A DNA stretch of 56,190 nt, from contig CANBER010000003.1 of assembly GCA_947367795.1 (NCBI GenBank), positions 1 to 56,190 on the forward strand, written 5' to 3'. The notes below the pieces were generated by a model. That model made no database searches. It was not told where the DNA came from and saw nothing but the letters and a program-made list of their open reading frames with translations. Origin of the DNA: an uncultured Candidatus Saccharibacteria bacterium (GTDB lineage Bacteria; Patescibacteriota; Saccharimonadia; Saccharimonadales; Saccharimonadaceae). Positions within the stretch are counted from its first letter, which is position 1; each line of letters starts with the position of its first letter. The position numbers and the translations under genes were made by a program. This document shows positions 1,936 to 15,750 of the stretch, piece by piece.

Positions 1936-1980
1936 AATATTTTTGTCTCCTTGACACTAATTATCTTTTATTTTGTTGTA

Positions 1981-2032
1981 AAAAGATAGCCCCTCGTTTT
2001 TGCGAGTTGAATTTATTTGATAGAGGGGCTAT
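1981..2032 (-). terminator. Terminator of the 4994-2067 operon
   Basis: The stem ATAGCCCCTC/GAGGGGCTAT (2023-2032 with 1986-1995 on the minus strand) is followed by CTTTTTAC. A smaller CTCG/CGAG hairpin sits inside the loop. It lies between the replication-like operon and the recombinase, which are both on the minus strand. Confidence 0.75.
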
Positions 2033-2066
2033 GTGCTTACGATTTTATGGCTAATGGCTAAAAGTC

Positions 2067-2435
2067 TTACGTTTTTTGCCGTTTTGCCGATGCACCGTTG
2101 TCGCTCTCTGGTACGGCTCCTAGTTTCTTTAGGATTTCCTCGTAGTATTGCGGTACTTTATCGCCAGGCAAAATATCCATGAAGATCGTGAAGCCGCCTG
2201 CTGGGGGTAAATTTGGATATACCTTATAGCCTACAATACACGCTGGCATATCTGTAGTTGTGTATGGTGGTTGAAAGTTAGGCTGTTCGAGCAATGCTTG
2301 CTCAAGCCTTTTGGCAAAATCATTAAGGTTAAATTCCGTAAACTTGACTGCTCCACCAGTCTCTTTGGAATCTGCTTGAACTAGGAGCGGCAAGTGTGTT
2401 TTTCGGTTTTTCGCCTTACGGCTAATTTTCTTCAT
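2067..2435 (-). CDS. Hypothetical protein, last gene of element A operon
   Basis: This 122-residue soluble protein has a basic start (KKISRKAKNRK) and a basic tail. I do not recognise a family. An AGGGAGA ribosome site lies seven bases before the ATG. It is the last gene of a minus-strand run (4994 to 2067) that ends in a strong terminator, and its neighbours include an SSB-like protein and an ATPase. A role in element replication or maintenance is only inferred from that position. Confidence 0.7.
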   Translation of the reverse strand: MKKISRKAKNRKTHLPLLVQADSKETGGAVKFTEFNLNDFAKRLEQALLEQPNFQPPYTTTDMPACIVGYKVYPNLPPAGGFTIFMDILPGDKVPQYYEEILKKLGAVPESDNGASAKRQKT

Positions 2436-2444
2436 TCTTTCTCC

Positions 2445-2645
2445 CTATTTCTTTTGCATTTTAATAGTAATAGTAATTTTGTTAAAAACTGGTTCTAGTG
2501 TGTATAAATCAGTGTATAACTTACGCTGTTTTGGCATATCGTCCAAGACTTGCTCTACCCACTTAACTAGTTTAGTCGTATCACCGTTGACACTTAGGTC
2601 GAAAACTCTGCCAACAATGCGTTTGTTTTTGTCGTTAATTTTCAT
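2445..2645 (-). CDS. Small hypothetical protein
   Basis: This 66-residue charged protein has no recognisable domain. AAAGGAGA precedes the ATG at good spacing, it lies nine bases before the next gene and 22 bases after the SSB-like gene, so it belongs to the same operon. It has no signal peptide and no membrane segment. Confidence 0.65.
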   Translation of the reverse strand: MKINDKNKRIVGRVFDLSVNGDTTKLVKWVEQVLDDMPKQRKLYTDLYTLEPVFNKITITIKMQKK

Positions 2646-2667
2646 AATTCTCCTTTTACTTTAATAA

Positions 2668-3195
2668 TTAAAATGGAATGCTATCTAGGTCAAAATCGTC
2701 TTCCGGAATATCTTTTGGCACTACGTCGGATTCGGCTCCGTTTGCCTCTAGGTTTAGTTCGTCTAAGAAGTCTGCCGTCATAGCCTTTGCCTCATTGACG
2801 GCTGGTTTCATAACGATTACGGTTTGTAGCGATTGACTCACGCCATTCCCGAATTGTTTATGGTGATACTCGTAGGCTTTAGCTACGATTGATACAACTG
2901 CTCCGTAGTCGAGACCATCCATAGCATCTTGCCCAGCCATATCAACTACTTCTGTATTGTTGGTGAGTTTGAACTTGAAGCGTTTTTGCCCTTCATATTC
3001 GTTGAACTTCGCCACGCCTGGTTCGTCTTTTCCAATCTTGTTTACGCTCACCCACGTTTTGATTTTTTCTTCAACTACTGGATCGTCAACGACCACCAAA
3101 ATAGACTTTCCGAGGTCGTCCTTGTTATCAAGGTTGGCAAATGCCACCTTGAGATTTTTGAGTTTAATGACCTTTGGGTCTTTCTCTTTCTTCAT
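2668..3195 (-). CDS. Putative phage/plasmid-type ssDNA-binding protein
   Basis: This 175-residue protein ends in a strongly acidic tail, EDDFDLDSIPF. It closely resembles the acidic IPF tip by which SSB proteins recruit replication partners. The body is a mixed alpha/beta sequence that I cannot assign to a canonical OB-fold by eye. It sits directly downstream of a P-loop ATPase gene, as phage and plasmid ssDNA-binding proteins often do. AGAGGA precedes the start. The SSB-like role is inferred from the tail and context; other tail-bearing replication accessory proteins are possible. Confidence 0.6.
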   Translation of the reverse strand: MKKEKDPKVIKLKNLKVAFANLDNKDDLGKSILVVVDDPVVEEKIKTWVSVNKIGKDEPGVAKFNEYEGQKRFKFKLTNNTEVVDMAGQDAMDGLDYGAVVSIVAKAYEYHHKQFGNGVSQSLQTVIVMKPAVNEAKAMTADFLDELNLEANGAESDVVPKDIPEDDFDLDSIPF

Positions 3196-3286
3196 TAGTA
3201 TCTGTTCCTCTTTAATTTGCTTTTATGTGAATTGGCTTATATTGTGGTGAGCCTCGAATTTGCGTCATAATTATCCTTACTACTCC

Positions 3287-4822
3287 TTAGTTTGAAGTTT
3301 CCGGCTTAGTTCCAGATTTTATCCATTTAGTATCGGTTAAAGTAATGTATCTCATGCCGTACTTGTAATGTTTGTTATCGACTTTAATGCCAATACTCTC
3401 CAGGGTGGGTTTACAACGCTCTAATTCTTTTCCTAGCGTGGCTGGCGTGCGAGGCCAATTCGGATCGTTCACTAGATAGCAACGGTCTTCAAAATCACTG
3501 GTATATTCGTAGCCTTCATGTACGAGTTTGATTTCATGAAGCTGTGAAGCAGTGCCTTCCCATGTTCCAGTTTGCGAGGTCAATAGCCGACAGGCTTGAG
3601 CAACTAATGAAGATTCGATTGCTAACTCGGTCTGTCTATTGAGAATGAACTCATATGCTTCTACGAACTCTTGTCCAGTATGCCCGTCCATACTCTCGCA
3701 CAGTGCATAAGACAGAACATACCAGTCAGCTAACCTTGGCAATTTCTCAAGTTTTACGGATGGTAAGAGTTTGAGGGCTTTACTCAAAATGTTATATACC
3801 GACCCCAATAAATACGGTTTTAACTTTGCAAACTCGGTGTCTAGCTCAGACTGCGTTTTACGTTTAGTTTCCGAAATACGGCTAATCTTCAATGGGACAG
3901 CCCTATCGGCCAAATCCTCCCTCTGTACCAGCGTCGATGGGATACCAGTAATGATTACTGGACGACAGATTTGGCACACCCAGTCACTGTCATCGCTATA
4001 TAGGATACGCTTATTAAAACTTGCTCCAGTACAAATCCTACACATGTCATCACTTAGGGATGTGGAAATATGGCTTACATTATCCAGCAATAGGACGGCG
4101 TTTTTATTAGCGGTTCGCATGAGTTCTTGGCTATTTTTGATTGCTGGCAAACCACTTTCTAGCGAAGAACATTCTACAAGGTCAACAATACGTCTAGCCG
4201 TAAGTGTTTTTCCCGATCCCATGTCGCCGCTTATACACAAAAGGGGCTTCGGAATGTCTGGAACGTATAGACTACAAATATATGCCATAACTACTAGCCA
4301 CTCTCGGTCATCCTTAAACTCCGACAAAAGCGGTCGTAATGCTTCAAGACTGCAATCTCCATGTCGTTCAGGCAGACATTGCGGTTTTTGATGTTGGTGA
4401 TGTAGAAAAGCGATTGGTACATCTTGAAGCGACCACGTTTCTGATGTGATACTAATAGCATGCGTTCCGTCTCCTACATCATAAACAATCTCTACTGGGT
4501 TGCCTTTTGAGTCGTTAGTACGACACAAACGAGTGTTTAGCTCGTGATATTCGCCACTTGTTTCGGCTTCGTAAACCAGCATGGTGCGGATAATATCGAC
4601 GATTGTATCTAGCCCTTGAAACCTCTTGTATTTCTTAATCAAGAAGTTACGTAGCCAACGCTCAAACTCTTTAGACATTAATTTGATAACCCGACCACCT
4701 TTCTTATCCAGAGCAATATACGGCTCTTGTTGTTGGTCGAAGAAGAGCGTATTTTGTGCTTTGATTTGCTCAACGGCTTCTTCTGCTAAGGTTTTTGGTT
4801 TATTTTCTGGCGGTTCTGCCAT
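3287..4822 (-). CDS. P-loop ATPase, replication/helicase-like protein of element A
   Basis: This 511-residue protein has a Walker A motif GDMGSGKT in its middle and a Walker B-like VLLLDNVS. This layout is familiar from primase/helicase-like ATPases of phages and integrative elements. ATG at 4822 is chosen because AGGAGG lies eight bases upstream; an upstream in-frame extension to 4897 overlaps the preceding gene and lacks an SD. It overlaps the 3' end of the 64-residue gene by 23 bases. I see no primase zinc finger or archaeo-eukaryotic primase motif. A role in element replication is inferred. Confidence 0.72.
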   Translation of the reverse strand: MAEPPENKPKTLAEEAVEQIKAQNTLFFDQQQEPYIALDKKGGRVIKLMSKEFERWLRNFLIKKYKRFQGLDTIVDIIRTMLVYEAETSGEYHELNTRLCRTNDSKGNPVEIVYDVGDGTHAISITSETWSLQDVPIAFLHHQHQKPQCLPERHGDCSLEALRPLLSEFKDDREWLVVMAYICSLYVPDIPKPLLCISGDMGSGKTLTARRIVDLVECSSLESGLPAIKNSQELMRTANKNAVLLLDNVSHISTSLSDDMCRICTGASFNKRILYSDDSDWVCQICRPVIITGIPSTLVQREDLADRAVPLKISRISETKRKTQSELDTEFAKLKPYLLGSVYNILSKALKLLPSVKLEKLPRLADWYVLSYALCESMDGHTGQEFVEAYEFILNRQTELAIESSLVAQACRLLTSQTGTWEGTASQLHEIKLVHEGYEYTSDFEDRCYLVNDPNWPRTPATLGKELERCKPTLESIGIKVDNKHYKYGMRYITLTDTKWIKSGTKPETSN

Positions 4823-4994
4823 TATTTTCCTCCTGAGAAAGGAGTTCTCGTGAGCGTAAAATCTTCGCAGCCGTGAATCTGATAACCGAAGTAGCACAAG
4901 CGTAAAGATCGTCGTCGCTCAGCTCCAGACCGACAGAAGACTTCACTATTTTGCGTAGTCGCTTCAGATTTTTGGCATCAAAAACCTTGTCCAC
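4800..4994 (-). CDS. Small hypothetical protein, first gene of operon
   Basis: This 64-residue helical, basic protein starts with GTG at 4994, preceded by AAAGGAAG. It overlaps the ATPase gene, which suggests translational coupling. No family is recognised; the size and charge would fit a DNA-binding regulator of the operon, but that is a guess. Its leader contains an 8-bp inverted repeat, GTAGATTC/GAATCTAC (5028-5053). Confidence 0.65.
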   Translation of the reverse strand: MDKVFDAKNLKRLRKIVKSSVGLELSDDDLYACATSVIRFTAAKILRSRELLSQEENNGRTARK

Positions 4995-5027
4995 GAGGGC
5001 TTCCTTTCTTTGATTTAAGTTTTGTAT

Positions 5028-5053
5028 TGTAGATTCTTTCGTCCTTGAATCTA
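5028..5053. promoter_or_regulatory. Inverted repeat in the operon leader
   Basis: GTAGATTC and GAATCTAC form a perfect 8-bp inverted repeat separated by ten bases, 34 bases upstream of the GTG at 4994. It could be a leader hairpin or an operator. Confidence 0.5.
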
Positions 5054-5086
5054 CCCCTATTCTAGTGAATCGAGGGCATTAAAAAT

Positions 5087-5120
5087 ATTAAGATAAGGAA
5101 AAATCTAATCTTAATTTTTT
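5087..5120 (-). terminator. Terminator overlapping the 3' end of the 329-residue gene
   Basis: On the minus strand ATTAAGAT (5115-5108) pairs with ATCTTAAT (5094-5087) and is followed by ATTTTTAATG. The hairpin includes the stop codon at 5111. Confidence 0.6.
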
Positions 5121-6100
5121 GACTCTATGGATTCTACATGAAGAGGCTTCTTTTTGCCCTTTTTTGTTGAAACTTGAAACCTTTGCGTTGAGATATCGAA
5201 TGATAAGTGTAGATTGCATTCTTCGGCAAGCCTATGACTATGGAGGGTAATTCGCTCGCTATTTGTACTCTCTATTAACTGTTGATATGCCAGGTCGAAA
5301 CAGTCTTCGTTTAGCTCGTTTTTCAGTTTAAAGCGTTCCTGATTTATATTCGAATAAGCAAGGGCTATGTTTGACCTGTCATTAAGCATCCCTATGATAT
5401 CGTCATTTTCAATGCCGCACTGTATCAAACATCGAGTTAGTAGCGATATAATGTAGCTTGCTTTTACTCGCCATTTTCTCGTATTAGCCATAGGCATATG
5501 CTCGGTGATTTCATCCCAATATCGATCGATAAACCATTCTAGGTCGGCTTTTTCTGCATACCTCCCAATGCGTATAAACATGCATTGCTCGTGGGCATTA
5601 TGAAGCGAGTGCGTCCTGTCAAGAACTTGTGGATCGTTTTTAGGACCAATCTGATTCATATCTTTGTCAAAGAAAATTAACGGCTCACGATAGACGTGAT
5701 ACGTATTGTTGCCAAGTATTATCTTGCTCCACAAATATTCACGCATTTCAGCTGATATCGTATTTGTTTGCCAGCAATATCTCCGAACTTCTTCTGAATA
5801 TGCTACCACACTGCTTTGTGAGCAGTTATTCGCAACAAAAACAGCCCTTGACAAGACTGGGTCTAGGTTGATTCTTATTATTTCAACCATCCGCCTATGC
5901 TCCCATGGAGGAGTATTACTACCCTTTTCTTTGAAAGGCTTACAATATTTATCCACTAGTGGTGATATCTTTTCAATCTCGCCTTTAACTTGTGCTAACT
6001 TTTCGTCATACTTAAGTTTATTATTGCAAAACATGAGATTTTGAATCTGAAAAAACTGCCTCTCGTCAAAAAATAGCAAATCTTGTTCCGATTCCTTCAT
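5111..6100 (-). CDS. Hypothetical protein of element A
   Basis: This 329-residue protein has no domain I can name. It is mostly helical, with no signal peptide or membrane segment. The start at 6100 (MKESEQD) is chosen because a near-consensus promoter, TTGATT, 17 bases, TATAAT (6130-6135 and 6107-6112), lies just six bases upstream; the mRNA is probably leaderless. An in-frame extension to 6211 would run through this promoter. The gene has its own promoter and terminator, so it is a single transcription unit between the replication operon and the nuclease gene. Confidence 0.7.
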   Translation of the reverse strand: MKESEQDLLFFDERQFFQIQNLMFCNNKLKYDEKLAQVKGEIEKISPLVDKYCKPFKEKGSNTPPWEHRRMVEIIRINLDPVLSRAVFVANNCSQSSVVAYSEEVRRYCWQTNTISAEMREYLWSKIILGNNTYHVYREPLIFFDKDMNQIGPKNDPQVLDRTHSLHNAHEQCMFIRIGRYAEKADLEWFIDRYWDEITEHMPMANTRKWRVKASYIISLLTRCLIQCGIENDDIIGMLNDRSNIALAYSNINQERFKLKNELNEDCFDLAYQQLIESTNSERITLHSHRLAEECNLHLSFDISTQRFQVSTKKGKKKPLHVESIESKN

Positions 6101-6106
6101 GTTTAT

Positions 6107-6135
6107 ATTATAATGATTATCCCTATAAAAATCAA
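6107..6135 (-). promoter_or_regulatory. Promoter of the 329-residue gene (leaderless start)
   Basis: On the minus strand there is TTGATT, 17 bases, TATAAT, then six bases to the ATG at 6100. No Shine-Dalgarno sequence can fit. Confidence 0.75.
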
Positions 6136-6222
6136 TACTGACCTCTGTTAGTAATACGTCTTCCCATCTGGAGCAAAATATGATACAATAGTACTGCTTA
6201 AGATTCAACAAAATAATTTGCT

Positions 6223-6345
6223 AACAGCAATCTGTTAGTTTCAAGAGAAAATGCGGCTATGTACGCAAATTTGGCTCTTGAAGCGCAGTTTGTTGGGTCT
6301 TAAGCGACTAAGTACATGGTCGCATTTTTGTTATTAGGGCGACCA
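6223..6345 (+). promoter_or_regulatory. Structured leader with alternative hairpins
   Basis: Several stems are visible in a row: CTAACAG/CTGTTAG (about 6223-6240), a long-range CAAGAG/CTCTTG pair, and TGCG/CGCA inside it. Next GCGAC (6304-6308) can pair with GTCGC (6319-6323), followed by ATTTTTG as in a terminator. The same GGTCGC (6318-6323) can instead pair with GCGACC (6339-6344), just before the ribosome site. The two pairings exclude each other, the arrangement of an attenuator or riboswitch expression platform. Confidence 0.5.
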
Positions 6346-6360
6346 GAAAGGACGAGCAAA

Positions 6361-7257
6361 ATGAGTACTATAAAATTCACCAGCCTACTACACTTATCAA
6401 ACGAAGATATGAGCCAACTTAAGCTCGTCTTCAATAGCAATTGGCAGTATAATGCTGAGGCTTGGATTCCAGAAGTTAGAGCCAAACTCGGCGAAGAATC
6501 CCGATATTTTGATTTGCTCGCAATGTACCGTTTTGGCGAAGTTTCCGTTGTGAAAGAGTCGGTCAAAACGCATAACCCAGACGCACATATTAAACGCTTC
6601 TCAAATGGTGATATTATATTTTGTTTCATCCCGTATTCTTCCGATAAGGACTGGCTACTAGTTAATGCCTATAAGGTGCTAGATAATAGCTCGCAATTAA
6701 TTGTCGTAGACGAGGGGAGCCTCGCCGAATATGCTTCACTATTTGGTCGGCTTGTAGTTCATTACGAAGATAAAGGCAGAAATGTGGTAGTGCGGAGCGA
6801 GGAGATTATTGACACTATCAGCGTAAAAACTATTCTCGAACAACCATATAATGAACTTAGCGAAGATTTTCCAGGCTATGATAACATTGACCTGTCGTGG
6901 AGCGATCTACGCAGAGTGTTAAAACTAAAGAACTGGCAAACTGTACTAGAAAACCAAAAAGGCGTTTACCTTATAACCGACACTCTTACTAATAAACGCT
7001 ACGTTGGCTCAGCTTATGGCAATGATATGTTGCTCGGTCGGTGGCGGAACTATGCCGAGAATGGGCACGGCGGAAATAGGGAGTTGAAAGCCTTAGTTGA
7101 AGAAAAAGGCTTAGATTACGTGAAGGATAACTTCCGCTACTCAATTCTCGACATTTATAAGTCCACGACAGACGACGAAACGATTATTGCAAGGGAGTCT
7201 TGGTGGAAAGAAGTACTACTCACTCGCAACCCAGAGTTTGGGTATAATGCGAACTAA
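6361..7257 (+). CDS. GIY-YIG nuclease family protein
   Basis: This 298-residue protein has a C-terminal GIY-YIG nuclease domain from residue 201: GVYLI, then YVGS, a conserved RW..Y, and later WWKEVLL with a Glu-containing helix. The N-terminal 190 residues have no recognisable domain. Start 6361 is chosen because AAAGGA lies nine bases upstream; an in-frame ATG at 6316 has no SD and lies inside the leader hairpins. Proteins with this domain cut DNA in phage defence, repair or mobile introns; the target here is unknown. It is cargo of element A and its leader looks regulated. Confidence 0.85.
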   Translation: MSTIKFTSLLHLSNEDMSQLKLVFNSNWQYNAEAWIPEVRAKLGEESRYFDLLAMYRFGEVSVVKESVKTHNPDAHIKRFSNGDIIFCFIPYSSDKDWLLVNAYKVLDNSSQLIVVDEGSLAEYASLFGRLVVHYEDKGRNVVVRSEEIIDTISVKTILEQPYNELSEDFPGYDNIDLSWSDLRRVLKLKNWQTVLENQKGVYLITDTLTNKRYVGSAYGNDMLLGRWRNYAENGHGGNRELKALVEEKGLDYVKDNFRYSILDIYKSTTDDETIIARESWWKEVLLTRNPEFGYNAN

Positions 7258-7260
7258 CAT

Positions 7261-7289
7261 TTGCCGAGAGCGTGAAAATATAGGATAAT
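7261..7289 (+). promoter_or_regulatory. Promoter, leaderless type
   Basis: TTGCCG (7261-7266), 17 bases, GATAAT (7284-7289), then seven bases to the ATG at 7297. It overlaps the end of the nuclease gene. Confidence 0.6.
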
Positions 7290-7296
7290 ATAAAGT

Positions 7297-7752
7297 ATGA
7301 GCGAGAAATATATCACAGTCAAAAGGAGGGATGGTATATATTGGTCAAGGTGGCCAGAGGAGCAGATTAACCCAGACGATATTATTTTTCTGATTCGCTC
7401 GATTGACACGACCTACGACCACGCTTCGGAAGATTTAGGGCATTTTTGCCAGATTGCTTATTGCCAAGGAAGCGAGATTGCGTGGGAGAACTTCAACCCT
7501 AAAGCGCCTGAACCGATTGACGAACTATTGGAGCAGGCAGGCGATAAACTAGATTGCATTTATAAAAATGACCATATTCAGTCGTGCTATTTAGGTAAAC
7601 CAAAAGTAGATTTTTGGGTCGATGGTGAAGATTTGATTTATCAAGACAAATATCGCTTTAGGAGACCAGACTCAAATGATTATTGGGGCAATAGCGATTT
7701 CGACGCATTGATTCAAGTGTTAAGCAGTAATAAGGAGTCCATGGAAGCATGA
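7297..7752 (+). CDS. Hypothetical acidic protein
   Basis: This 151-residue acidic, tryptophan-rich protein has no recognised domain. It is probably translated from a leaderless mRNA (promoter 7261-7289). It overlaps the next gene by four bases (ATGA-type overlap at 7749), forming an operon with the 63-residue protein and the HD-domain protein. Confidence 0.65.
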   Translation: MSEKYITVKRRDGIYWSRWPEEQINPDDIIFLIRSIDTTYDHASEDLGHFCQIAYCQGSEIAWENFNPKAPEPIDELLEQAGDKLDCIYKNDHIQSCYLGKPKVDFWVDGEDLIYQDKYRFRRPDSNDYWGNSDFDALIQVLSSNKESMEA

Positions 7753-7940
7753 AGCACAATATGGAAGAAATTAAGAAAATACAGGCTGAGATGGTTACCA
7801 GTTTTCAAGAGAGAGGCTGGAAAGATGCCGCTAGGATTGTAAAAGGTTATACGGATCCAGTAGATATTAATTACGCGTACAAGTGGTACAAGAAAGCAGA
7901 TGACGAAACTACATTCTGGACGGCAATGACCTATGACTAA
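7749..7940 (+). CDS. Small hypothetical protein
   Basis: This 63-residue helical protein contains NYAYKWYKKADDE, a repeat-like helix pair. It is translationally coupled to the preceding gene and lies 12 bases before the HD-domain gene. I do not recognise a family. A second possible start is the methionine at codon 5. Confidence 0.55.
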   Translation: MKHNMEEIKKIQAEMVTSFQERGWKDAARIVKGYTDPVDINYAYKWYKKADDETTFWTAMTYD

Positions 7941-7952
7941 AAAGGAGACTAC

Positions 7953-8414
7953 ATGGCACTATACCAAGAAACACCATATGATTATATAAATACAGCCCTA
8001 GAGCTAGCAGTTAAGGCTCATACTGGGCAAGTTGATAAGGGTAATGGTTTGCCGTATATTCTCCATCCACTTAAGGTTGCAAGCCGAGTCCGCACTCCAG
8101 AGCAGAAAGCCGCAGCGATTTTACATGATACCCTAGAAGATACGAGTTTAACCTTAGACGATCTCCGAGAGGCAGGTATTCCGGAGCGAGTTGTAGAACT
8201 AGTAGAAATCTTGACCGATCCAAAGGAAGGCGATTTTACGGACTACATAAATAAGGTCGCTGAAGATTTTGACGCAGCCGTAGTTAAACATGCCGATCTA
8301 GAAGACAACCTCAGTCCAACACGAGGCAGAGGACTGAACGATAAGATCCGTAGTAAAGTTTATAGTGGTCTGGAGATTTTGGAAAGCAAATACCCAGAAT
8401 TAAAATACACGTAA
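7953..8414 (+). CDS. HD-domain protein, small alarmone hydrolase (MESH1-like)
   Basis: This 153-residue single-domain protein matches the HD hydrolase half of RelA/SpoT: AHTGQ, PYILHPLKVA, AILHDTLEDT and a late VVKHADLEDN. Such stand-alone proteins remove pyrophosphate from ppGpp or related nucleotides in a metal-dependent way. AAAGGAG precedes the ATG. It is the last gene of a three-gene operon ending at terminator 8496-8528. As mobile-element cargo it may adjust host stringent signalling or act on defence nucleotides; both ideas are inference. Confidence 0.8.
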   Translation: MALYQETPYDYINTALELAVKAHTGQVDKGNGLPYILHPLKVASRVRTPEQKAAAILHDTLEDTSLTLDDLREAGIPERVVELVEILTDPKEGDFTDYINKVAEDFDAAVVKHADLEDNLSPTRGRGLNDKIRSKVYSGLEILESKYPELKYT

Positions 8415-8495
8415 GCACAACGAGAAAACGGCAAATCGGCAATTATACGCAAAAGCTGGGTAAATACTTGAGTTTGTGAGTTTCGGACGCAGGAG

Positions 8496-8528
8496 CACGT
8501 TCTAGAAGGCTTAGAGCGTGTATTTTTT
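8496..8528 (+). terminator. Terminator of the 7297-8414 operon
   Basis: CACGTTCTA (8496-8504) pairs with TAGAGCGTG (8512-8520) with one mismatch, followed by TATTTTTTG. Confidence 0.7.
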
Positions 8529-8616
8529 GTTGGGCTTAGTTCCAAGCTAGCCGTTTATAAGAAGAAACCAATAATGGTTGCCCTTACCGTGGATATACAC
8601 TATGCTATATTTAGAT

Positions 8617-8841
8617 ATGATTGTCAATGATAACTGGAAATCAAACTTCTGTAAGTACGAGAAAGTCCGCCGCAGTGGTAGATACAATATGATTATGGAA
8701 GCCGATAAAGCCATTAAGGCCTGTGATATTACCAATCGAGAATACCGAGATATTTTACTGGGATATAGCACCTATAAACGTTATATAGAAGCAGAGTACG
8801 GTACAGTTGATAGTTTTATGCGGAGGTATAAGAAGAAATGA
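8617..8841 (+). CDS. Small phage-like protein, copy 1 (DUF5049-like?)
   Basis: This 74-residue protein has the central motif KVRRSGRYNM followed by a helical region ending in RRYKKK. It is a close paralogue of the protein at 13100-13342. The SG..NM pattern resembles short phage and ICE proteins of the DUF5049 type; that assignment is tentative. Start 8617 is chosen by alignment with copy 2. It overlaps the next gene by four bases (ATGA), and the same gene order recurs in copy 2, so the two products probably work together. Confidence 0.65.
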   Translation: MIVNDNWKSNFCKYEKVRRSGRYNMIMEADKAIKACDITNREYRDILLGYSTYKRYIEAEYGTVDSFMRRYKKK

Positions 8842-9124
8842 AACTTTTAGATTATGAGTGTCAAACTACATTTTGGGAAGATTTTACCGTTACAGAAATG
8901 TTTGGAGAAGAAGCGATTAGAGACACTTACAAGCGAGCAAAAGCCGAGTGGAAAACGATCGTATATACGGAACAGAACTGTCTATGGTACTTAACCATAA
9001 ATGCCACTATTGGTACGAGGAGCACAATGCGAGCCTTAGCCAACTTTATGCTGGACTTTGGGAAGAATGGCATGGGTGGGTGCTTGAGAATTGGGAGGGT
9101 GAAGATTTAAGGGGTATTATTTGA
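8838..9124 (+). pseudogene. Partner of the small phage-like protein, copy 1, frameshifted
   Basis: The first 40 residues (MKLLDYECQTTFWEDF...) match copy 2 at 13330-13629. Compared with copy 2, one base is missing between about 8956 and 8970, after which the homology continues in another frame (GTELSMVLNHK, LWEEWHGWVLENW). Two extra bases occur near 9108. The uninterrupted frame therefore ends at 9110 with an unrelated tail. It overlaps the end of the convergent gene at 9107. Confidence 0.65.
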
Positions 9125-9898
9125 GGGTGACGGATTAGAGATTGAGCCAATAAAATTTGGTTTTTCGTCCAGGAAATTCATGTCATGCCAGAAATTATCT
9201 AGATATTCATGTAGATAGTTGTAATGCCCGACTATTTCTATAAGCACAGTATTTGACAAACTACCATCAGAAAAAGCTGCGTTGCGGATATTTCCCCCAG
9301 AACCATGCGCTTCCTGAGTTCTAAAAGTGCTATCCAACTTTGTTATTACTTCTAGAAACTCCTCTAAAGTTGCCTTTGGGAATTTATCACTGCTTAAGTC
9401 TTCAATATGCTTACGAAAGTATTTCTTTTTACTATCGGAGCCGATAAATTGTTCATAGGATTTGAGACCAAGTTCAATAAGTACGATTACTCCCATAAGT
9501 TTATCCCAAATAGCCCTACAAGTCATTACACAAGCGTTTGCATAAAACTGCAATTTCATCCGTGGATGAAGCATTTCGGGCAAGTTTAAAACATCATACT
9601 CGTCTCCAAGTAATTCATAAATATACGCAGAGAGATTGGCGAAGTTAATCTTTAAATCGAGAAAAATACTAAAAATCCTATAATTGCCCCGACATTTGTC
9701 GTATATATCATTTAGTGGTAAACCATCAAAACTTTCGTACTGATAAATCACTGACGCCATAAGCGGCTGAATCCATACTATAGGATTAAGCTCGTCTAGC
9801 CTGTGGTTGATTTTTGAAAATTCTTCAAGCTGAATGCCCCCACCGCCATTATAGGCATCTTCTATCTCGGGCAGCATATCGGATGCTCGTCTCAACAA
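9107..9898 (-). CDS. Hypothetical protein, possibly HEPN-like
   Basis: This 263-residue all-helical protein has the stretch CRAIWDKLMGVIVLIELGLK. It recalls HEPN-type helical proteins, which often have an R...DK helix, but I cannot confirm a catalytic R-x4-6-H motif. It overlaps the upstream 109-residue gene by seven bases, so the pair is translationally coupled and transcribed from the promoter at 10229-10234. The context in a defence-rich element allows a toxin/antitoxin or defence role, without direct evidence. Confidence 0.6.
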   Translation of the reverse strand: MLRRASDMLPEIEDAYNGGGGIQLEEFSKINHRLDELNPIVWIQPLMASVIYQYESFDGLPLNDIYDKCRGNYRIFSIFLDLKINFANLSAYIYELLGDEYDVLNLPEMLHPRMKLQFYANACVMTCRAIWDKLMGVIVLIELGLKSYEQFIGSDSKKKYFRKHIEDLSSDKFPKATLEEFLEVITKLDSTFRTQEAHGSGGNIRNAAFSDGSLSNTVLIEIVGHYNYLHEYLDNFWHDMNFLDEKPNFIGSISNPSPSNNTP

Positions 9899-10221
9899 AG
9901 CATCGTATTCTTTTTTTCCTCTGATGTCATTATTCTTTGTGCAGTTTTTGAAAAATATTGACTCTTTTTTGGATTGATTGCCGAATCCATTATTTCGTAG
10001 ACAAATGATCCTAACTCCGTATCGAGCCTATCGGCATCTGCCCTACTTTTAATAGGGTACAGAGGCTCTAGTGAGTCAAGCAATCTTAATTGTCTAGCGA
10101 ATTGATCTGAAGGAGAAACTTGCGAATTTGGCGCCACTAAGGATATCGTGTCGCTTGGTGTTATATCGAACGGCTTAGCAATATTCCTAAAACCATCAGA
10201 GCTGGCATTTGCGTTTTTCAT
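9892..10221 (-). CDS. Hypothetical protein, partner of the 263-residue protein
   Basis: This 109-residue protein starts at 10221 (MKNANASSDG). That start is supported by an extended -10 box (TGTTATAAT, box at 10229-10234) seven bases upstream, a leaderless arrangement. The in-frame extension to 10245 would lie upstream of transcription. No domain is recognised. It overlaps the following gene by seven bases. Confidence 0.6.
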   Translation of the reverse strand: MKNANASSDGFRNIAKPFDITPSDTISLVAPNSQVSPSDQFARQLRLLDSLEPLYPIKSRADADRLDTELGSFVYEIMDSAINPKKSQYFSKTAQRIMTSEEKKNTMLC

Positions 10222-10228
10222 TAATTCT

Positions 10229-10234
10229 ATTATA
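10229..10234 (-). promoter_or_regulatory. Extended -10 box, leaderless start
   Basis: On the minus strand TGTTATAAT is followed by seven bases and the ATG at 10221. No good -35 box is seen. Confidence 0.55.
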
Positions 10235-10282
10235 ACATAAATCAATCTAGTCTATGACTTTAGAGAGTAGTTAATTATCTAG

Positions 10283-11338
10283 CTACTTGGCCAGCATCAT
10301 AGCGTCAATGGTGTTTGGGATTTTTTCATAAATCGTCGATGCGATCTGGTTATGAAATCCTTTGGGTTTCTTGATTGAAAAAGAGTCGCAAATATCTAGA
10401 ACCATTTTTGGTAATGACCCGTATACATTACAGTAGATGTTCATACCCCGGCTAAAAACAAAGGACACACAGCTTCTGTAGTATAAGTCCATGATACGCA
10501 CTAATTTTTCTAGCTGCTTAAAAACATTATTGATGTTTGTTGAGCAGAGATTTGTGTAGATACTGTGATTAAACGGTAAGCCCTGTACCTCTTCAACCTC
10601 AGTACTAATCTTCCAACGCTTGTTATTATCCCATTTATCCTTATGGAAATAATACCTCTCGTATTCTTTTATGTCGGCAATATTAGGCATACGCTTGCCA
10701 GTATCATCAAAGTAATTTTGCCTATAAAACTCCTTTGCTAATCTAGCAGCCCTGCCAGAATACGCATCATAATACAATGTAAAATGTTCGTTATCATTGC
10801 CAATAAAAAAGTTCCTATCAATTGAACAATTCTTTAGCTCTATTCGTTTGCCTTTGAATTGTGTATAGCCTCTTCTTATATCGTTCTTATGTATAAAACC
10901 TGTAGAGTATCCAAAAAGTGCAAACTTAGATTTATGGAGCTCATTAAGCTGTCTTAGATTATTTAAGTTAGCCAGTTCGCTTATAAATGTCCCCGCTGAA
11001 TTTGCGTCCTTTTTACAGTAGAATAGTTTCCTTAGTTCTAGCATCATTGAATCTACTAGCATAGAATAAGCGTAATAAAGAGTTTCGAAATTACATGGAT
11101 CGGAATAAGTAAAAGTTGTCTGCCTTGATACTTTACCATTTGAACTAGATACTTCATCAGTTATAATCTTATTAGGCTCATATAAGCATTCTGCTATGCG
11201 CATTATCTCTTCGACTGTTAAAACGTATATAATGCGCCTGGTGCAGTTGCCAAGATCGTTCATTATATTGACTTCATCCTTTTCTTTGCTAAAGTATTTT
11301 TTGTTTAGTTCATTAATTTTATCTTCATCTTTTATCAT
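10283..11338 (-). CDS. Hypothetical protein of element A
   Basis: This 351-residue protein is rich in Tyr, Asn and Lys and looks mostly helical. No domain is recognised. Start 11338 (MIKDEDK) is preferred because TATAAT lies twelve bases before it; seven extra codons are possible from 11359 but would include the promoter. It stands alone near the right end of element A, just before the internal attachment-like site. Its AT-rich composition differs from the chromosomal genes beyond 16 kb. Confidence 0.6.
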   Translation of the reverse strand: MIKDEDKINELNKKYFSKEKDEVNIMNDLGNCTRRIIYVLTVEEIMRIAECLYEPNKIITDEVSSSNGKVSRQTTFTYSDPCNFETLYYAYSMLVDSMMLELRKLFYCKKDANSAGTFISELANLNNLRQLNELHKSKFALFGYSTGFIHKNDIRRGYTQFKGKRIELKNCSIDRNFFIGNDNEHFTLYYDAYSGRAARLAKEFYRQNYFDDTGKRMPNIADIKEYERYYFHKDKWDNNKRWKISTEVEEVQGLPFNHSIYTNLCSTNINNVFKQLEKLVRIMDLYYRSCVSFVFSRGMNIYCNVYGSLPKMVLDICDSFSIKKPKGFHNQIASTIYEKIPNTIDAMMLAK

Positions 11339-11392
11339 ACTATAGATAATATTATACAATGGTTGGCATAATCTGTAGATTCACGTTATAGA

Positions 11393-11695
11393 TCACTTTT
11401 CCTCTAGAAAAGCCGTTAAAGCCGAGTGAACTATGTCCGACCACAGTTTATATAAATGCGATTTTAGTGAATTCGACTCCTGTAAAATGGGCGAATTTTT
11501 TGTTAAAGCCCCAGAGAGGGAGTTCTTGAACAATTCTTGTTCGATTTGTCTTTTGCCATCATCTATAATCTCAATCCATTTGTACGGTTTTACCTCTATT
11601 AGTTTGGTTGTTAAAGCCTTGGTAGATTTTTGTGGAATGACGATTGGGTTTTCTAGTTCGTCAATGTTGACTTGACAGAAAATGTTTTGAACCAA
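11393..11695 (-). pseudogene. Remnant of a second serine recombinase (C-terminus only)
   Basis: The product aligns over its whole length with the C-terminal 100 residues of the recombinase at 82-1935: IVIPQKSTKALTTK, KPYKWIEIIDDGK, SLKSHLYKLWS. Resolvase and zinc-ribbon parts are missing. After LWS it continues as DIVHSALTAFLEEK, which is probably the original recombinase end. The attachment-like core CCGACCA (11437-11443) lies at the LWS codons. It marks the left end of a second, decayed element whose recombinase body has been lost. Confidence 0.8.
11437..11443 (+). other. Internal attachment-site-like core (element A/B junction)
   Basis: CCGACCA is flanked on the left by GTGAACTATGT, similar to the left flank of attR (CCGAACTACGT). 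On the right it is flanked by CAGTTTATATAAATG, similar to the right flank of attL (TAGTTGAAATAAATG). The site therefore combines the right end of one element with the left end of another. Confidence 0.7.
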
Positions 11696-11707
11696 TAGGC
11701 AATCAGA

Positions 11708-12937
11708 TTAGATGGAGTTCCCTTGCCAAATTTGGAAACTATCGCCTTCTACTCGGATTAATTGATTATCATTCAGACAGATAATAGGCTGCGAAATATT
11801 GTAGAACTCATTCGGAGTTTCACGAAGAAATCCGGAAAACTTCTCACGTTTCTCACCACTGCGATTCCAGTGCGGTTTAATTAGAAAGTTTACTAGCCCT
11901 AATCCCGTAAAGTCTTTCATATCATCGACTAATACTAAATCACCACTCATGTATTGCTGGTCCTGAATGTTTTTGCTGCATATTATTGCACCCGCACTTT
12001 CACCAATATAGGGTACGCCTTTTGCTAGAAGATTTCTAATAATCTTACTAAAGTTACAATTCTGAATTTGTTTTAAAAGATAGAAGCTATTACCTCCCTG
12101 CACAAAAACTATATCTTTGTTATTCAGCTCCGTTGCCACCTCTGCCTCAGTTTTTCCAGCGATATCGTAGTCGAAGACTTGCCAACCCCGTTCTTTAAGA
12201 ATTTTTCTTCCGTCATCAATCCACCCCTTTTTGTCGGTCGAATGCAGGTTTCCTGCCGTGGTGATATAGGAGAGTTGAATTTCTGTCGCATTTTTACCTA
12301 GCAGGTTCTCAATATCATCCATAATCAACTTCGCCACACCAGATCCACGAAAGCTAGAAGCTAAATACAAGTTTTGCAAAGCATCATCTTTTAAGATTAC
12401 AGAAAGAAGTTTTGGAAATTCTTTGTATTTTGAAGACGTTCCAAGATTAAAATGACCTTGGCCTTTAATGACGGTGAGCTTTCCTTTTAGATTCTTGACT
12501 AATTTCCGAGGTTCATCCAAAGGTACATATGGGTCGTTATCTGAGTGCAAGAAAATGAAGTCGTCACATTTTTGCTTTACATCGTCGTAGTTCACCTTGA
12601 TGTTGTGCAGGTCTTTTAACTTATCCCAGCCAAGATTAGTATAGAATCCGCTCACGAAAATTGCTTTTCTGATTTTTGCTTCAGCTGGTAGCTTTTGTAA
12701 CAGCATGGGAATAAGAGCCGCTCCAGCAGAGTGTCCAATAATAATCGTATTTTCATCGGGTTCGAAAGGCATATTCTGGATAACAAAGTTGCTCCATACT
12801 TCACCGTTCGGATAGGCTGCGTTAGGTAGAGATGGCGCATAAACCGTAAATTCGTGTTTCTCTAATTGTTGTTTTAACCACGGCAACCAATTGCTTTTAT
12901 TGCTGCCGTCTGTGCCATGCAGTAAAATTGCTTTCAT
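11708..12937 (-). CDS. Fusion of an RBBP9/YdeN-like serine hydrolase and an S51 (dipeptidase E-like) peptidase
   Basis: This 409-residue two-domain protein is unusual. Residues 1 to about 180 form an alpha/beta hydrolase of the RBBP9/YdeN type: start AILLHGTDG, nucleophile elbow GHSAGA, acid region HSDNDPYVP, and histidine in GQGHF. From about residue 190 to the end it matches peptidase family S51: FVQGGNSFYLL and the nucleophile motif GESAGAII. S51 enzymes cleave Asp-containing dipeptides or cyanophycin. Each half is normally a separate protein. It lies in element B; TATAAT occurs about 50 bases upstream of the start. Substrates are unknown. Confidence 0.82.
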   Translation of the reverse strand: MKAILLHGTDGSNKSNWLPWLKQQLEKHEFTVYAPSLPNAAYPNGEVWSNFVIQNMPFEPDENTIIIGHSAGAALIPMLLQKLPAEAKIRKAIFVSGFYTNLGWDKLKDLHNIKVNYDDVKQKCDDFIFLHSDNDPYVPLDEPRKLVKNLKGKLTVIKGQGHFNLGTSSKYKEFPKLLSVILKDDALQNLYLASSFRGSGVAKLIMDDIENLLGKNATEIQLSYITTAGNLHSTDKKGWIDDGRKILKERGWQVFDYDIAGKTEAEVATELNNKDIVFVQGGNSFYLLKQIQNCNFSKIIRNLLAKGVPYIGESAGAIICSKNIQDQQYMSGDLVLVDDMKDFTGLGLVNFLIKPHWNRSGEKREKFSGFLRETPNEFYNISQPIICLNDNQLIRVEGDSFQIWQGNSI

Positions 12938-13099
12938 GTAAAAATCGTAATCCTCGTTAGCTATATACCTTATTATACAACACTTCCTAACAAGGCACTG
13001 AGCTTTAGAATATAGGCTAAGAGTACGTGCAGTCGACTGGTGGAGAAAGTGTTATAGTATATAGACGAGACGTCGAGCAATTGCGAGGTAAGTTTTTAG

Positions 13100-13342
13100 A
13101 TGGCGTTGATAAATAAAGATTGGAAGCCAATTTTTTACAAGTACGAAAAAGTACGGAGAAGTGGTAGATATAACATGATTATGGAAGCCAATAAGGCAAT
13201 TAAGGCAATTAAGGCTTGTGGTATAAGTAGCCGAGAATATAGAGATATTATACTGGGTTACAATACTTACAAACGCTATATTGAGGCAGAGTATGGTACA
13301 GTTGACAACTTTATGAGGAGGTACAGGAAACGAGGCTTTTAG
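13100..13342 (+). CDS. Small phage-like protein, copy 2
   Basis: This 80-residue paralogue of 8617-8841 shares KVRRSGRYNMIMEA and YKRYIEAEYGTVD and has a short duplication (KAIKAIKA). It occupies the equivalent place in element B. AGGT precedes the ATG. Its 3' end overlaps the next open frame, as in copy 1. Confidence 0.65.
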   Translation: MALINKDWKPIFYKYEKVRRSGRYNMIMEANKAIKAIKACGISSREYRDIILGYNTYKRYIEAEYGTVDNFMRRYRKRGF

Positions 13343-13629
13343 ACTACGAGTGTCAGACTACCTTCCAAGAAGATTTTAGTATAGCGGAACTTTTCGGAGA
13401 AGAAGCAATTAAAGACACTTATAGGAGAGCTAGAGCAGAATGGGAGCGTGATCAGGTTTGCGGAACAGAACTGTCTATGGTGCTTAATCATAAATGTTGG
13501 TATTGGTACGGAAGAACTGACTCTAGGTTTAGCGGATTATATACTGAGCTTTGGGAAGAATATCATGATTGGGTGCTAGAGAATTGGAGAGGTGAAGATT
13601 TGGGGTATTATTTGAGAGTTACGGACTAG
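13330..13629 (+). pseudogene. Partner of the small phage-like protein, copy 2, lacking ATG
   Basis: This 99-codon open frame is intact from 13330 to the stop at 13627-13629 and encodes LLDYECQTTFQEDF... to WRGEDLGYYLRVTD. The position of the copy 1 ATG is ACG here, although AGGAGGT is still present at suitable spacing. Either the start was lost by a point change, or ACG, or another codon, is used at low level. The product is acidic with several Trp and Tyr residues and is not recognised. Confidence 0.55.
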
Positions 13630-13678
13630 GTGTAAAATTTTAGACAGCCCAATATAATGAATTATCCTTCATTGGTTA

Positions 13679-15010
13679 CTAGAGTATTACTTCTACATGA
13701 AATTTTTTACCGATCTCAACCACCTTACGAGTATGTTTATTGTAAATAAAATATTTTATCCAGTGGGTTCCATCATATGATTCGGTTTCATGATTTATAA
13801 ATTCGTTCGAGCTAGAACCCTCTATACCATCTCTACCTCTAGCTTTAAATAAGTTACCCCGTCTGCCTTTAGAGCCGACGGCATTAAGTACTTGCCATCT
13901 TATACCGTAATCTGTCTTATTATAATCGGTGGATGCTATAAATTTTAATGGTTTGCCTTTGCCGAGGAACTTATACCATGTTTTCTTCATAGTATATGCT
14001 TTCTTGTCACATTCCGAAATATCTTTCTTTTTGAGAGAACCATCGAGTTCAATGCCTAAATTGCGATTCCTTAGTGCTTCGAGACATTCTGGGTAGTCAG
14101 ATAGGGCATTTGGGAAGTCGCTACTCAGATGAACTCTAATCTTGTTTAGATCAGGTTCATCCTTGCAAATGAGTTCACCCTCAAGAACCGCCAAACACTC
14201 CTGAAATGTAACCCTAATAATATCGCAATCGGTTGGTTTTATCTTTATAGCTAGATTCTCGTTAACCGTAGGCATAGTTATCACAATTTGACCATACGGC
14301 TTACTAAAAATTTTAACTATTTCTTTAACGACCAAAATAAGATCTTCAGCATATGACAATGTCTGTTTATAGGACGAACATACTATAGCCATGATGCATA
14401 TCGAAGGAAACTTATCTGTCAATTCTGCGTAATCACGAATTCTTTTCAGAATTACTATAAGAGCTTGCACGAAGCGTTTCTCCTCTGCATACTCAAGAAA
14501 CCATTCTTTTAACCTCTTAGTGTCACTATCAGCCCAACGGTCTTGACTCCTTCTTGCAACATATCTACAGACACCATCCAATCGCGATAATACTGGTACA
14601 TAGTCGGCATGGAATAAAACTTCAGTTTGCAAATCCCGAGAGTGATACACTCGCTCACAGCTTTCACGCTTTTTGTTATCTACTTTATCAGTATATTCAT
14701 TTACCAATATATTATGTGTGTCAGCCAGTGACTTGGCTGGTCCATTCCACTCCTCTCGCTCTAGCACGATATCTATATCATATTCTCCCCCAATGCCGCT
14801 TTTGCTTTGGTTTGCAGTTAGTGGTTTTACAATTGTACCCATGGCATATGACCCCTGAGTATAGACGTCTAGATCAGCGTAGTTTGACATAAAGATAGCA
14901 ATAGCCTCGCTTAAAGTCTCGTCTATTCTGACGGCTTGGGTTTGCGTTAAGGCTATATTGACCAAAAAATCTTCGAAGAGCGTATCATACCTACGTAAAT
15001 CTTTACACAT
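13679..15010 (-). CDS. CBASS CD-NTase (cyclic oligonucleotide synthase)
   Basis: This 443-residue protein has the nucleotidyltransferase signature QGSYAMGT (Gly53-Ser54), the metal-binding pair in GGEYDID (Asp78 and Asp80) and a third acidic residue Asp136 in HADYVPV. The C-terminal part (LKFIASTDYN, DYGIRWQV, RGNLF, GTHWIKYFIYN, FHVEV) matches the AGS-C sensor domain that accompanies CD-NTases. On phage infection such enzymes make cyclic di- or trinucleotides that switch on an effector. The ATG overlaps the end of the upstream membrane-protein gene by eight bases, so effector and cyclase are coupled. Cap2 and Cap3 accessory genes are absent, so it would be a minimal (type I) system. Confidence 0.85.
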   Translation of the reverse strand: MCKDLRRYDTLFEDFLVNIALTQTQAVRIDETLSEAIAIFMSNYADLDVYTQGSYAMGTIVKPLTANQSKSGIGGEYDIDIVLEREEWNGPAKSLADTHNILVNEYTDKVDNKKRESCERVYHSRDLQTEVLFHADYVPVLSRLDGVCRYVARRSQDRWADSDTKRLKEWFLEYAEEKRFVQALIVILKRIRDYAELTDKFPSICIMAIVCSSYKQTLSYAEDLILVVKEIVKIFSKPYGQIVITMPTVNENLAIKIKPTDCDIIRVTFQECLAVLEGELICKDEPDLNKIRVHLSSDFPNALSDYPECLEALRNRNLGIELDGSLKKKDISECDKKAYTMKKTWYKFLGKGKPLKFIASTDYNKTDYGIRWQVLNAVGSKGRRGNLFKARGRDGIEGSSSNEFINHETESYDGTHWIKYFIYNKHTRKVVEIGKKFHVEVIL

Positions 15011-15533
15011 CGTACTTTGTCACCTCCCAAATCCTGTCATGTGTTGCTATTAAGAATCTCCTGGCTGGACAGAGGAACCGTCTAGAGTCCAAGGAAAATC
15101 GCTTAGATAATCTATTAAGCTTTTTATGATTCAACTTAATATCATCCTCCATATCTGCAGACGGATTACCTTGCTTCTTCCATGCCTTGCTCATAGATGC
15201 ACTCGTAAGATCTTTTACAGATTCCAAGTAAAGCGAATACCTATCTCCGTACCACCTAGATTCCACCCGCAAAAGACACCTGTAGTATTCATTTTCTTCT
15301 TGGACATCATGCACAAGGTTCTTAATTTCAGTATCCTCACCGTCCGCTCGCCTACGAATCCTATAACACAACTCTACTCGTTTTAAGACAGAGGCACTAG
15401 CTCTAGCGACCAGCTCTTTTCGCTCCTTCCTTCTATCGCGATAGCCCACAACAAAGTGATTAATTATGGATGCAATCAACGACGAACCCAATACTAAGGG
15501 CACTACTGTACTCATATCTAAACCGCTTCCCAT
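15003..15533 (-). CDS. Single-span membrane protein, putative CBASS effector
   Basis: This 176-residue protein has one N-terminal transmembrane helix (VVPLVLGSSLIASIINHFVV). A basic juxtamembrane stretch (RDRRKERKELVARAS) and a helical cytoplasmic domain with LLRVESRWYGDRY follow. AAAGGAGG lies five bases before the ATG at 15533. It overlaps the CD-NTase gene by eight bases and is transcribed first. Membrane-spanning effectors that kill the cell on nucleotide binding are common in CBASS; the effector role is inferred from the coupling. I do not recognise a known Cap family. Confidence 0.75.
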   Translation of the reverse strand: MGSGLDMSTVVPLVLGSSLIASIINHFVVGYRDRRKERKELVARASASVLKRVELCYRIRRRADGEDTEIKNLVHDVQEENEYYRCLLRVESRWYGDRYSLYLESVKDLTSASMSKAWKKQGNPSADMEDDIKLNHKKLNRLSKRFSLDSRRFLCPARRFLIATHDRIWEVTKYDV

Positions 15534-15570
15534 CTAGCCTCCTTTATAAGAACAGTTTATCATAGATGGA

Positions 15571-15582
15571 TTGACATGTCAA
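15571..15582. promoter_or_regulatory. 12-bp palindrome upstream of the CBASS-like operon
   Basis: TTGACATGTCAA is a perfect palindrome 38 bases upstream of the effector start and includes a TTGACA -35-like hexamer. A TATGAT/GATAAA region follows. It may be an operator over the promoter. Confidence 0.4.
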
Positions 15583-15654
15583 GAAAGCATGTTCTAATAT
15601 GGTTATGTTTTTAGCATTTGGGACGCTTTCCGTGAGACTTCAGTAACATTTTCA

Positions 15655-15702
15655 CTCTCCCTCTAGAAACTTTGTTATAGCCGACCGAACTACGTCCAAC
15701 CA
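15655..15702 (-). other. Right end of the island: recombinase tail remnant and attR core
   Basis: Read on the minus strand after the core, the codons give DVVRSAITKFLEGE and a stop. They parallel the tail DIVHSALTAFLEEK in the 11393-11695 remnant. The core CCAACCA (15696-15702) differs from the tRNA 3' end by one base. The island therefore ends here, and sequence to the right is host. Confidence 0.7.
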
Positions 15703-15718
15703 ATCAAGGAGACGAACC

Positions 15719-15750
15719 GAAAGAAAAAGGCTCGACTTTTTCTTTTTCAA
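15719..15750 (+). terminator. Displaced tRNA-Pro terminator
   Basis: GAAAGAAAAAG and CTTTTTCTTTTTC flank the loop GCTCGA. If the island were excised, this hairpin would lie about 16 bases after the CCA end of tRNA-Pro, the usual place for its terminator. It could also end minus-strand transcription from 16478. Confidence 0.65.

Follow-up and report, generated by a model that had tools for sequence, protein, structure and literature searches.

Two putatively mobile DNA elements arranged head to tail behind a proline tRNA gene in a Saccharibacteria genome

Overview of the tandem elements

Two DNA elements, A (204-11443) and B (11437-15702), lie head to tail behind the tRNA-Pro(GGG) gene in the tiny genome of an uncultured Candidatus Saccharibacteria bacterium (GCA_947367795.1, contig CANBER010000003.1), and both are inferred to be mobile. 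The stretch analysed, hereafter the window, comprises 56,190 nucleotides (positions 1-56,190 of the contig, forward strand). Element A contains an intact large serine recombinase gene, whereas only the last ~75 codons of a recombinase gene are left in B (Table 1). It is very probable that A and B were inserted successively at the 3' end of tRNA-Pro(GGG) by one family of large serine recombinases. This reading rests on the observed anatomy of the element ends, the tandem junction, a relative containing a solo B, relatives in which the site is unoccupied, in-frame read-through of the recombinase gene into the tRNA, and conserved tails at the right ends.

Table 1. Features of elements A and B and of their target gene (positions in the window)
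Feature	Position	Strand	Evidence or similarity
Large serine recombinase of A	82..1935	-	Resolvase, Recombinase and Zn-ribbon Pfam matches; PHROG integrase
tRNA-Pro(GGG), target gene, intact after integration	135..210	+	ARAGORN
attL core CCGACCA, last 7 nt of tRNA-Pro(GGG)	204..210	+	
Left end of A, antisense code for recombinase C-terminus	211..432	.	78% DNA identity to left end of B
A core genes: ORFs of unknown function and a 536 aa protein with GDMGSGKT P-loop (by eye)	2067..6211	-	
A cargo: GIY-YIG protein, ORFs of unknown function, HD_4 protein	6316..8414	+	
Small gene pair, copy 1, with a frameshift in its second gene compared with copy 2	8578..9138	+	
A cargo: three ORFs of unknown function	9107..11359	-	
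Right end of A, antisense tail SDIVHSALTAFLEEK and stop, in recombinase frame	11393..11443	-	
Tandem junction core CCGACCA, exact copy of tRNA-Pro(GGG) end	11437..11443	+	
Left end of B, including ~75 codons of a recombinase C-terminus (remnant)	11444..11671	-	
B cargo: fusion of a serine hydrolase with peptidase S51	11708..12937	-	Counterpart in the solo B of G350 with 87% aa identity
Small gene pair, copy 2	13100..13629	+	
B cargo: CD-NTase (SMODS + AGS_C), CBASS-type cyclase	13679..15010	-	
B cargo: 1TM protein resembling a CBASS effector, its gene overlapping that of the cyclase	15003..15533	-	PADLOC effector E 9.5e-10
Right end of B, antisense tail LDVVRSAITKFLEGE and stop	15652..15702	-	
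attR core CCAACCA, one mismatch to tRNA-Pro(GGG) end	15696..15702	+	

Flanks of the cores and the tandem junction

The 7-mer CCGACCA occurs 8 times in the window against 5.2 expected; this count is near chance and alone not significant, and bare core matches were therefore rejected as evidence. The signal is carried by the flanks. To the left of the middle and right cores, 51 nt including the core can be aligned (local score 47); without the core the score is 38, the largest value among 500 shuffles being 29, and the match is unique within the window (40/57, against no more than 31/57 at any other position). To the right of the left and middle cores, the flanks are 78% identical over 218 nt (score 198). 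The cross comparisons (left of attL against the other left flanks, and right of attR against the other right flanks) gave scores of 15-22, which is the level of shuffled sequences. Similarity thus ends at the core in both directions, and the junction is the right-end/left-end hybrid that is expected of tandem elements. A preliminary description of this DNA had assigned an attR-type left flank and an attL-type right flank to the core at 11437-11443, and would have been refuted by similarity running on through the core; the flank alignments agree with the assignment. Its supporting observations were also reproduced, namely a recombinase C-terminal remnant (in ORF 11393-11695, with 63-73% amino acid identity to two recombinases) and a second copy of a small gene pair (8626-9138 versus 13112-13629, 78-89% identical in blocks). 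Its proposal of two related tandem elements is supported, the junction having the architecture predicted for A followed by B, with the refinement that B is a recombinase-less unit and not a full element.

Immediately outside attR, a hairpin followed by a T run was found (15718..15750, + strand). It is not stronger than those in shuffled sequences and is possibly the displaced original terminator of tRNA-Pro(GGG). The left end of A was also considered as a source of a tRNA terminator, but the fold z values (0.6 for A, 0.0 for B) do not support this for either element. Hairpins in the left ends of several relatives' autonomous elements had z values below -1.5 in 9/20.

Gene content of the two elements

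The part of the recombinase gene that belongs to A itself (208-1935) comprises 576 codons, and the sequence downstream of W576 consists of antisense tRNA and chromosome. Matches to PF00239, PF07508 and PF13408 above the cut-offs satisfy the domain criterion for a large serine recombinase, and the protein also matches a PHROG integrase (E 8.5e-61). No Pfam match to a relaxase or to conjugation genes was obtained among the ten A proteins scanned, several of which had no match at all, so that a divergent one is not excluded; on this evidence A does not satisfy the criterion for an ICE or IME. Genes resembling the core genes of A (by eye) adjoin a closely related recombinase gene in another Saccharibacteria contig (L032).

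Element B retains both att ends and no integration genes, and it thereby meets the structural criterion for a CIME (accreted cis-mobilisable element), a class whose members in addition move upon excision or transfer of an adjacent element. A structure model of its recombinase remnant reached a pLDDT of only 42, too low to support a fold search. In the cargo of B, a CD-NTase gene adjoins a gene for a putative membrane effector, an arrangement that meets the criterion for a type I CBASS-like pair; its function is inferred from sequence alone. The small gene pair, whose function is unknown, is present in A, in B, and in the solo B of G350, and its second gene, besides being frameshifted in A, apparently lacks an ATG start in B.

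Solo elements and unoccupied sites in related genomes

The relatives' genomes were one per species and thus did not include close-strain comparisons. Solo insertions of A or B in relatives had been proposed as a check, and this was fulfilled for B and only in part for A. In a genome of the same genus (G350, contig C14), positions 4699-6843 match 11437-13628 of the window with 79% DNA identity over ~2.2 kb; the match starts at the core, at the 3' end of another proline tRNA gene, tRNA-Pro(TGG), and other cargo then follows. No recombinase of A's family was found in this genome at E 1e-30 (85% complete). The L032 contig, which is short, carries at tRNA-Pro(TGG) a recombinase that is 90% identical in amino acid sequence to that of A in the best segment, but the right end of its element lies off the contig.

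tRNA-Pro(GGG) and the same NUDIX gene lie 772 nt apart in G353 and ~0.9 kb apart in G349, compared with 17.65 kb in the window, indicating that the site is unoccupied in these two relatives. The stretch from attR to the NUDIX gene in the window is, however, 1.3 kb longer than in the unoccupied relatives, which counts against the explanation favoured here.

A further right end was identified in the window's own genome, 2.2 kb behind tRNA-Pro(TGG) (G000:C6:2011-4308, L161), and probably represents another small recombinase-less unit. Two other loci, L037 (G134:C5) and L131 (G260:C9), each have a partial second recombinase gene, limited to residues ~8-285, next to another recombinase gene; it is possible that the partial gene is a truncated partner or a pseudogene.

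Stacks of short units behind tRNA genes

The recombinase family is associated with longer stacks of units, some of them one gene long, behind many tRNA genes. In related genera, stacks of 0.44-1.7 kb units, mostly with a single gene, are located behind tRNA-Arg, tRNA-Gly and tRNA-Trp (L047, L045, L043 and L199/L200). The right-end motif is repeated three times behind tRNA-Trp (L043), four or five times behind tRNA-Gly (L045), and six times behind tRNA-Arg(TCT) (L047). Units between the repeats (496-1692 bp) mostly contain one gene, e.g. for HIT, nucleoside deoxyribosyltransferase, TauE or SDR proteins, or an ABC pair, and the same arrays also hold longer multi-gene units of up to 5.5 kb. A NUDIX unit is found at tRNA-Met (L127). 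In G079, five units of 442-1531 bp lie behind tRNA-Arg(TCT) and encode a cupin, a NUDIX protein, a beta-lactamase-fold protein, one unknown protein and, in the tRNA-proximal unit (667 bp), a P-loop protein; no recombinase match was found at this locus. One left-arm sequence is present in 8 copies among 199 genomes, all of which are in the arrays of G100 and G079. Single cassettes were sought in congeners, and no full-length match was found in 28 genomes of one genus, the other genus being represented by only four genomes.

These arrays raise the possibility that B is not a decayed element and is instead a cassette, i.e. a recombinase-less unit of a serine-recombinase cassette system. This possibility, which refines successive insertion without excluding it, deserves to be retained although we do not favour it. 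The arrays behind tRNA-Arg, tRNA-Gly and tRNA-Trp, whose short units mostly hold one gene and share the right-end motif, are consistent with it, as are the G079 array without a recombinase match at its locus and the B-like unit of G350, a genome in which no recombinase of this family was found, but the ~75 recombinase codons kept in B look like decay, and the small cassettes come from other genera of the family and have left ends unlike a recombinase C-terminus.

Recombinase frame at the junctions and position of attP

The recombinase ORF of A has no stop before attL and enters the antisense strand of the tRNA, and the codon for W576 is the complement of CCA. This frame and this W recur at ~40 loci (some counted twice) in full-length group-1 relatives abutting a tRNA gene, and these loci involve eleven or so tRNA types (Pro, Arg, Gly, Trp, Leu, Ser, Asn, Gln, Val, Ala, and Tyr). 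In a more distant recombinase group (L021, L022, L023, L025, L027, and L031), antisense-tRNA read-through occurs in a different frame.

At the right ends, an open tail continues the recombinase frame, SDIVHSALTAFLEEK in A and LDVVRSAITKFLEGE in B, and the corresponding motif in relatives is W-x-[TGS]-hh-x-E-V-x-T-hh. A tail scan with a score of at least 23 yielded 22 matches on the recombinase strand, none on the opposite strand, and none in reversed sequence; in most additional elements a single tail match was obtained, in the expected orientation and with a core compatible with the element's own tRNA. In 19/19 of the relatives' autonomous elements, at least 6 nt (TGGNNN) are common to the tRNA and the right-end core (shared core, 6-10 nt), and the matching cores in these elements exceed 5000 permutations. 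When attP was reconstructed in silico for 20 elements, the strongest dyad was centred at TGGNN|N (mean 9.3 of 22, compared with 4-7 for dyads centred elsewhere). As the right end of each element carries a conserved in-frame tail, attP is placed inside the recombinase gene. At L127:18927, a recombinase C-terminus is in frame with a tail from the NUDIX unit, which lies between the recombinase gene and tRNA-Met.

The sequence comparisons do not decide whether selection acts on the tail as protein. Its pN/pS is not reduced relative to column permutations (96/400 and 101/1000), and the frame-0 amino acid similarity of the tails, although far above permutations, is partly circular because the sequences were picked by amino acid score. 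The tail may alternatively function in DNA only, as a binding arm for the recombinase, its open frame being incidental. We regard this as the less likely reading, even though the codon tests do not separate the tail from chance and a DNA motif, GAAGTTnnAAC, is conserved: no stop precedes the junction in the full-length group-1 relatives abutting a tRNA, and codon 5 of the tail keeps a hydrophobic pattern despite variable first and third positions. In ORF 11393-11695, moreover, the recombinase remnant of B is fused in frame across the core to the tail encoded by the right end of A, and a low-confidence model of this fusion (pLDDT ~50) predicts one helix, H75-98, across the junction.

Proposed order of insertion and mechanism

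Chromosomal DNA past the right cores differs at every occupied site, so that the tRNA half is probably the recognised part, and attB would be read mainly from this half (acceptor 3' end plus CCA). Such recognition would leave attL usable for a newcomer and would explain why A lies beside the tRNA and B behind it; insertion would rebuild the tRNA 3' end, rendering the site reusable and placing the next unit between the tRNA and the earlier unit. B, lacking a recombinase, would have been inserted first or moved in trans, and A, with its intact recombinase, later. The preliminary description had likewise called B the older element to the right of A; the position is observed, and the age is inferred from the distance to the tRNA and from the decayed right core. 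Crossover is presumed to occur near the dinucleotide at tRNA positions 71/72. The mismatch in the right core of B falls at this very dinucleotide, and the central dinucleotide of A (CG) is palindromic, leaving orientation control unexplained; both points count against the proposed mechanism.

In the circular form, the recombinase of A would end ...LKSHLFQLW-SDIVHSALTAFLEEK, the tail being supplied by the right end of the element, and the predicted circle junction is ...CAACTA TGGTCGG ACATAGTT.... Integration would then exchange the circle-coded tail for antisense-tRNA residues. Circles, catalysis, arrival order, and a regulatory effect of the tail swap are all inferred, and no circle or excision product was seen. 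As a broader and tentative hypothesis, which at present falls somewhat short of being the probable one, the family may constitute an integron-like system based on a serine recombinase, in which serial, mostly one-gene units use the tRNA 3' end as a fixed entry point and, because attP lies within the recombinase gene, the recombinase tail is switched at each insertion; mobility is again inferred. Within this hypothesis, A and B would be a small instance of such a system.

Successive insertion also has to be weighed against a single composite element (204-15702) containing an internal copy of its own end, in which case a separate B never existed. The presence of only one intact recombinase and the small gene pair common to A and B would fit a composite, but it is very improbable in view of the hybrid nature of the middle core, the solo B of G350 with its own attL at another tRNA-Pro, and further tandem junctions with different partners in the same genus (G349, G351, and G353; the situation in G354 is more complex). 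Still less credible is a segmental duplication of the left end of A that later diverged, which the 78% DNA identity of the left ends would allow: the remnant of B is closer to the L032 recombinase than to that of A (73 and 63% amino acid identity, respectively) and so is not a copy of A, these identities suggest that the C-termini of B and the G350 type group apart from A, and in G350 this end is likewise accompanied by the adjoining B genes.

Significance and comparison with known systems

Saccharibacteria are tiny, host-dependent bacteria, and their gene gain is poorly understood. A serine-recombinase family associated with many tRNA genes would be a concrete route, by which defence genes (CBASS in B) and, in relatives, short one-gene stacks would be carried. 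The family would also offer a large set of recombinases whose predicted attP sites correspond to tRNA ends, as well as a testable model in which insertion edits the C-terminus of the recombinase itself.

Tandem accretion and an attP inside a serine integrase gene are both known from other systems. The literature searched for serine recombinases together with tRNA targets and either Saccharibacteria or arrays of cassettes yielded no clade of serine recombinases that targets tRNA genes and is associated with cassette-like arrays; the search did not extend to most subscription papers or preprints and is therefore weak evidence of novelty. In a mycobacterial survey, tRNA-gene sites belong to tyrosine integrases.

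Streptococcal ICEs that target rumA with a single serine integrase have direct repeats that lie, at opposite ends, in the target gene and in the integrase gene, and their integration alters the integrase C-terminus (PMC4701971). They are thus similar to the present elements in having attP within the serine integrase gene and a C-terminus that is changed on integration. Their target, however, is a protein gene that undergoes reciprocal 3' exchange with a frame change, whereas in the present case the targets are many tRNA genes, the tRNA is rebuilt, and A has no recognised conjugation gene. In pleolipovirus proviruses, attP lies inside a CDS whose frame is completed only in the circle (PMC7911831), but this CDS is separate from the integrase gene and beside it, and these are archaeal viruses. 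Accretion of CIMEs and IMEs places a recombinase-less element with att ends beside an integrase-bearing one at the same site (PMC5704250); the known tandems are conjugative or mobilisable, in contrast to a serine recombinase at a tRNA gene with no conjugation genes recognised.

Staphylococcal and enterococcal cassette chromosomes (SCC/ECC), which are moved by the ccr large serine recombinases, share related recombinase domains, variable cargo, and insertion at the 3' end of a gene, but they differ in their site (rlmH rather than tRNA-Pro) and in their ccrA/ccrB pairs. The recombinase of A matches the CcrB model with E 3e-21 and a score of 75.6, far below the cut-off of 900, and the criterion for SCC/ECC is not met; an attP inside the recombinase gene is not described in the portions of the SCC/ECC source that were available. 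Integrons are defined by an IntI-type tyrosine recombinase, a criterion not met by the serine family described here, whose site is the 3' end of a tRNA, and no attC sites were shown in the relatives' arrays. Without this defining enzyme, the arrays are nevertheless integron-like in layout, consisting of serial, short, mostly one-gene units at one anchored site, either beside the recombinase or away from it.
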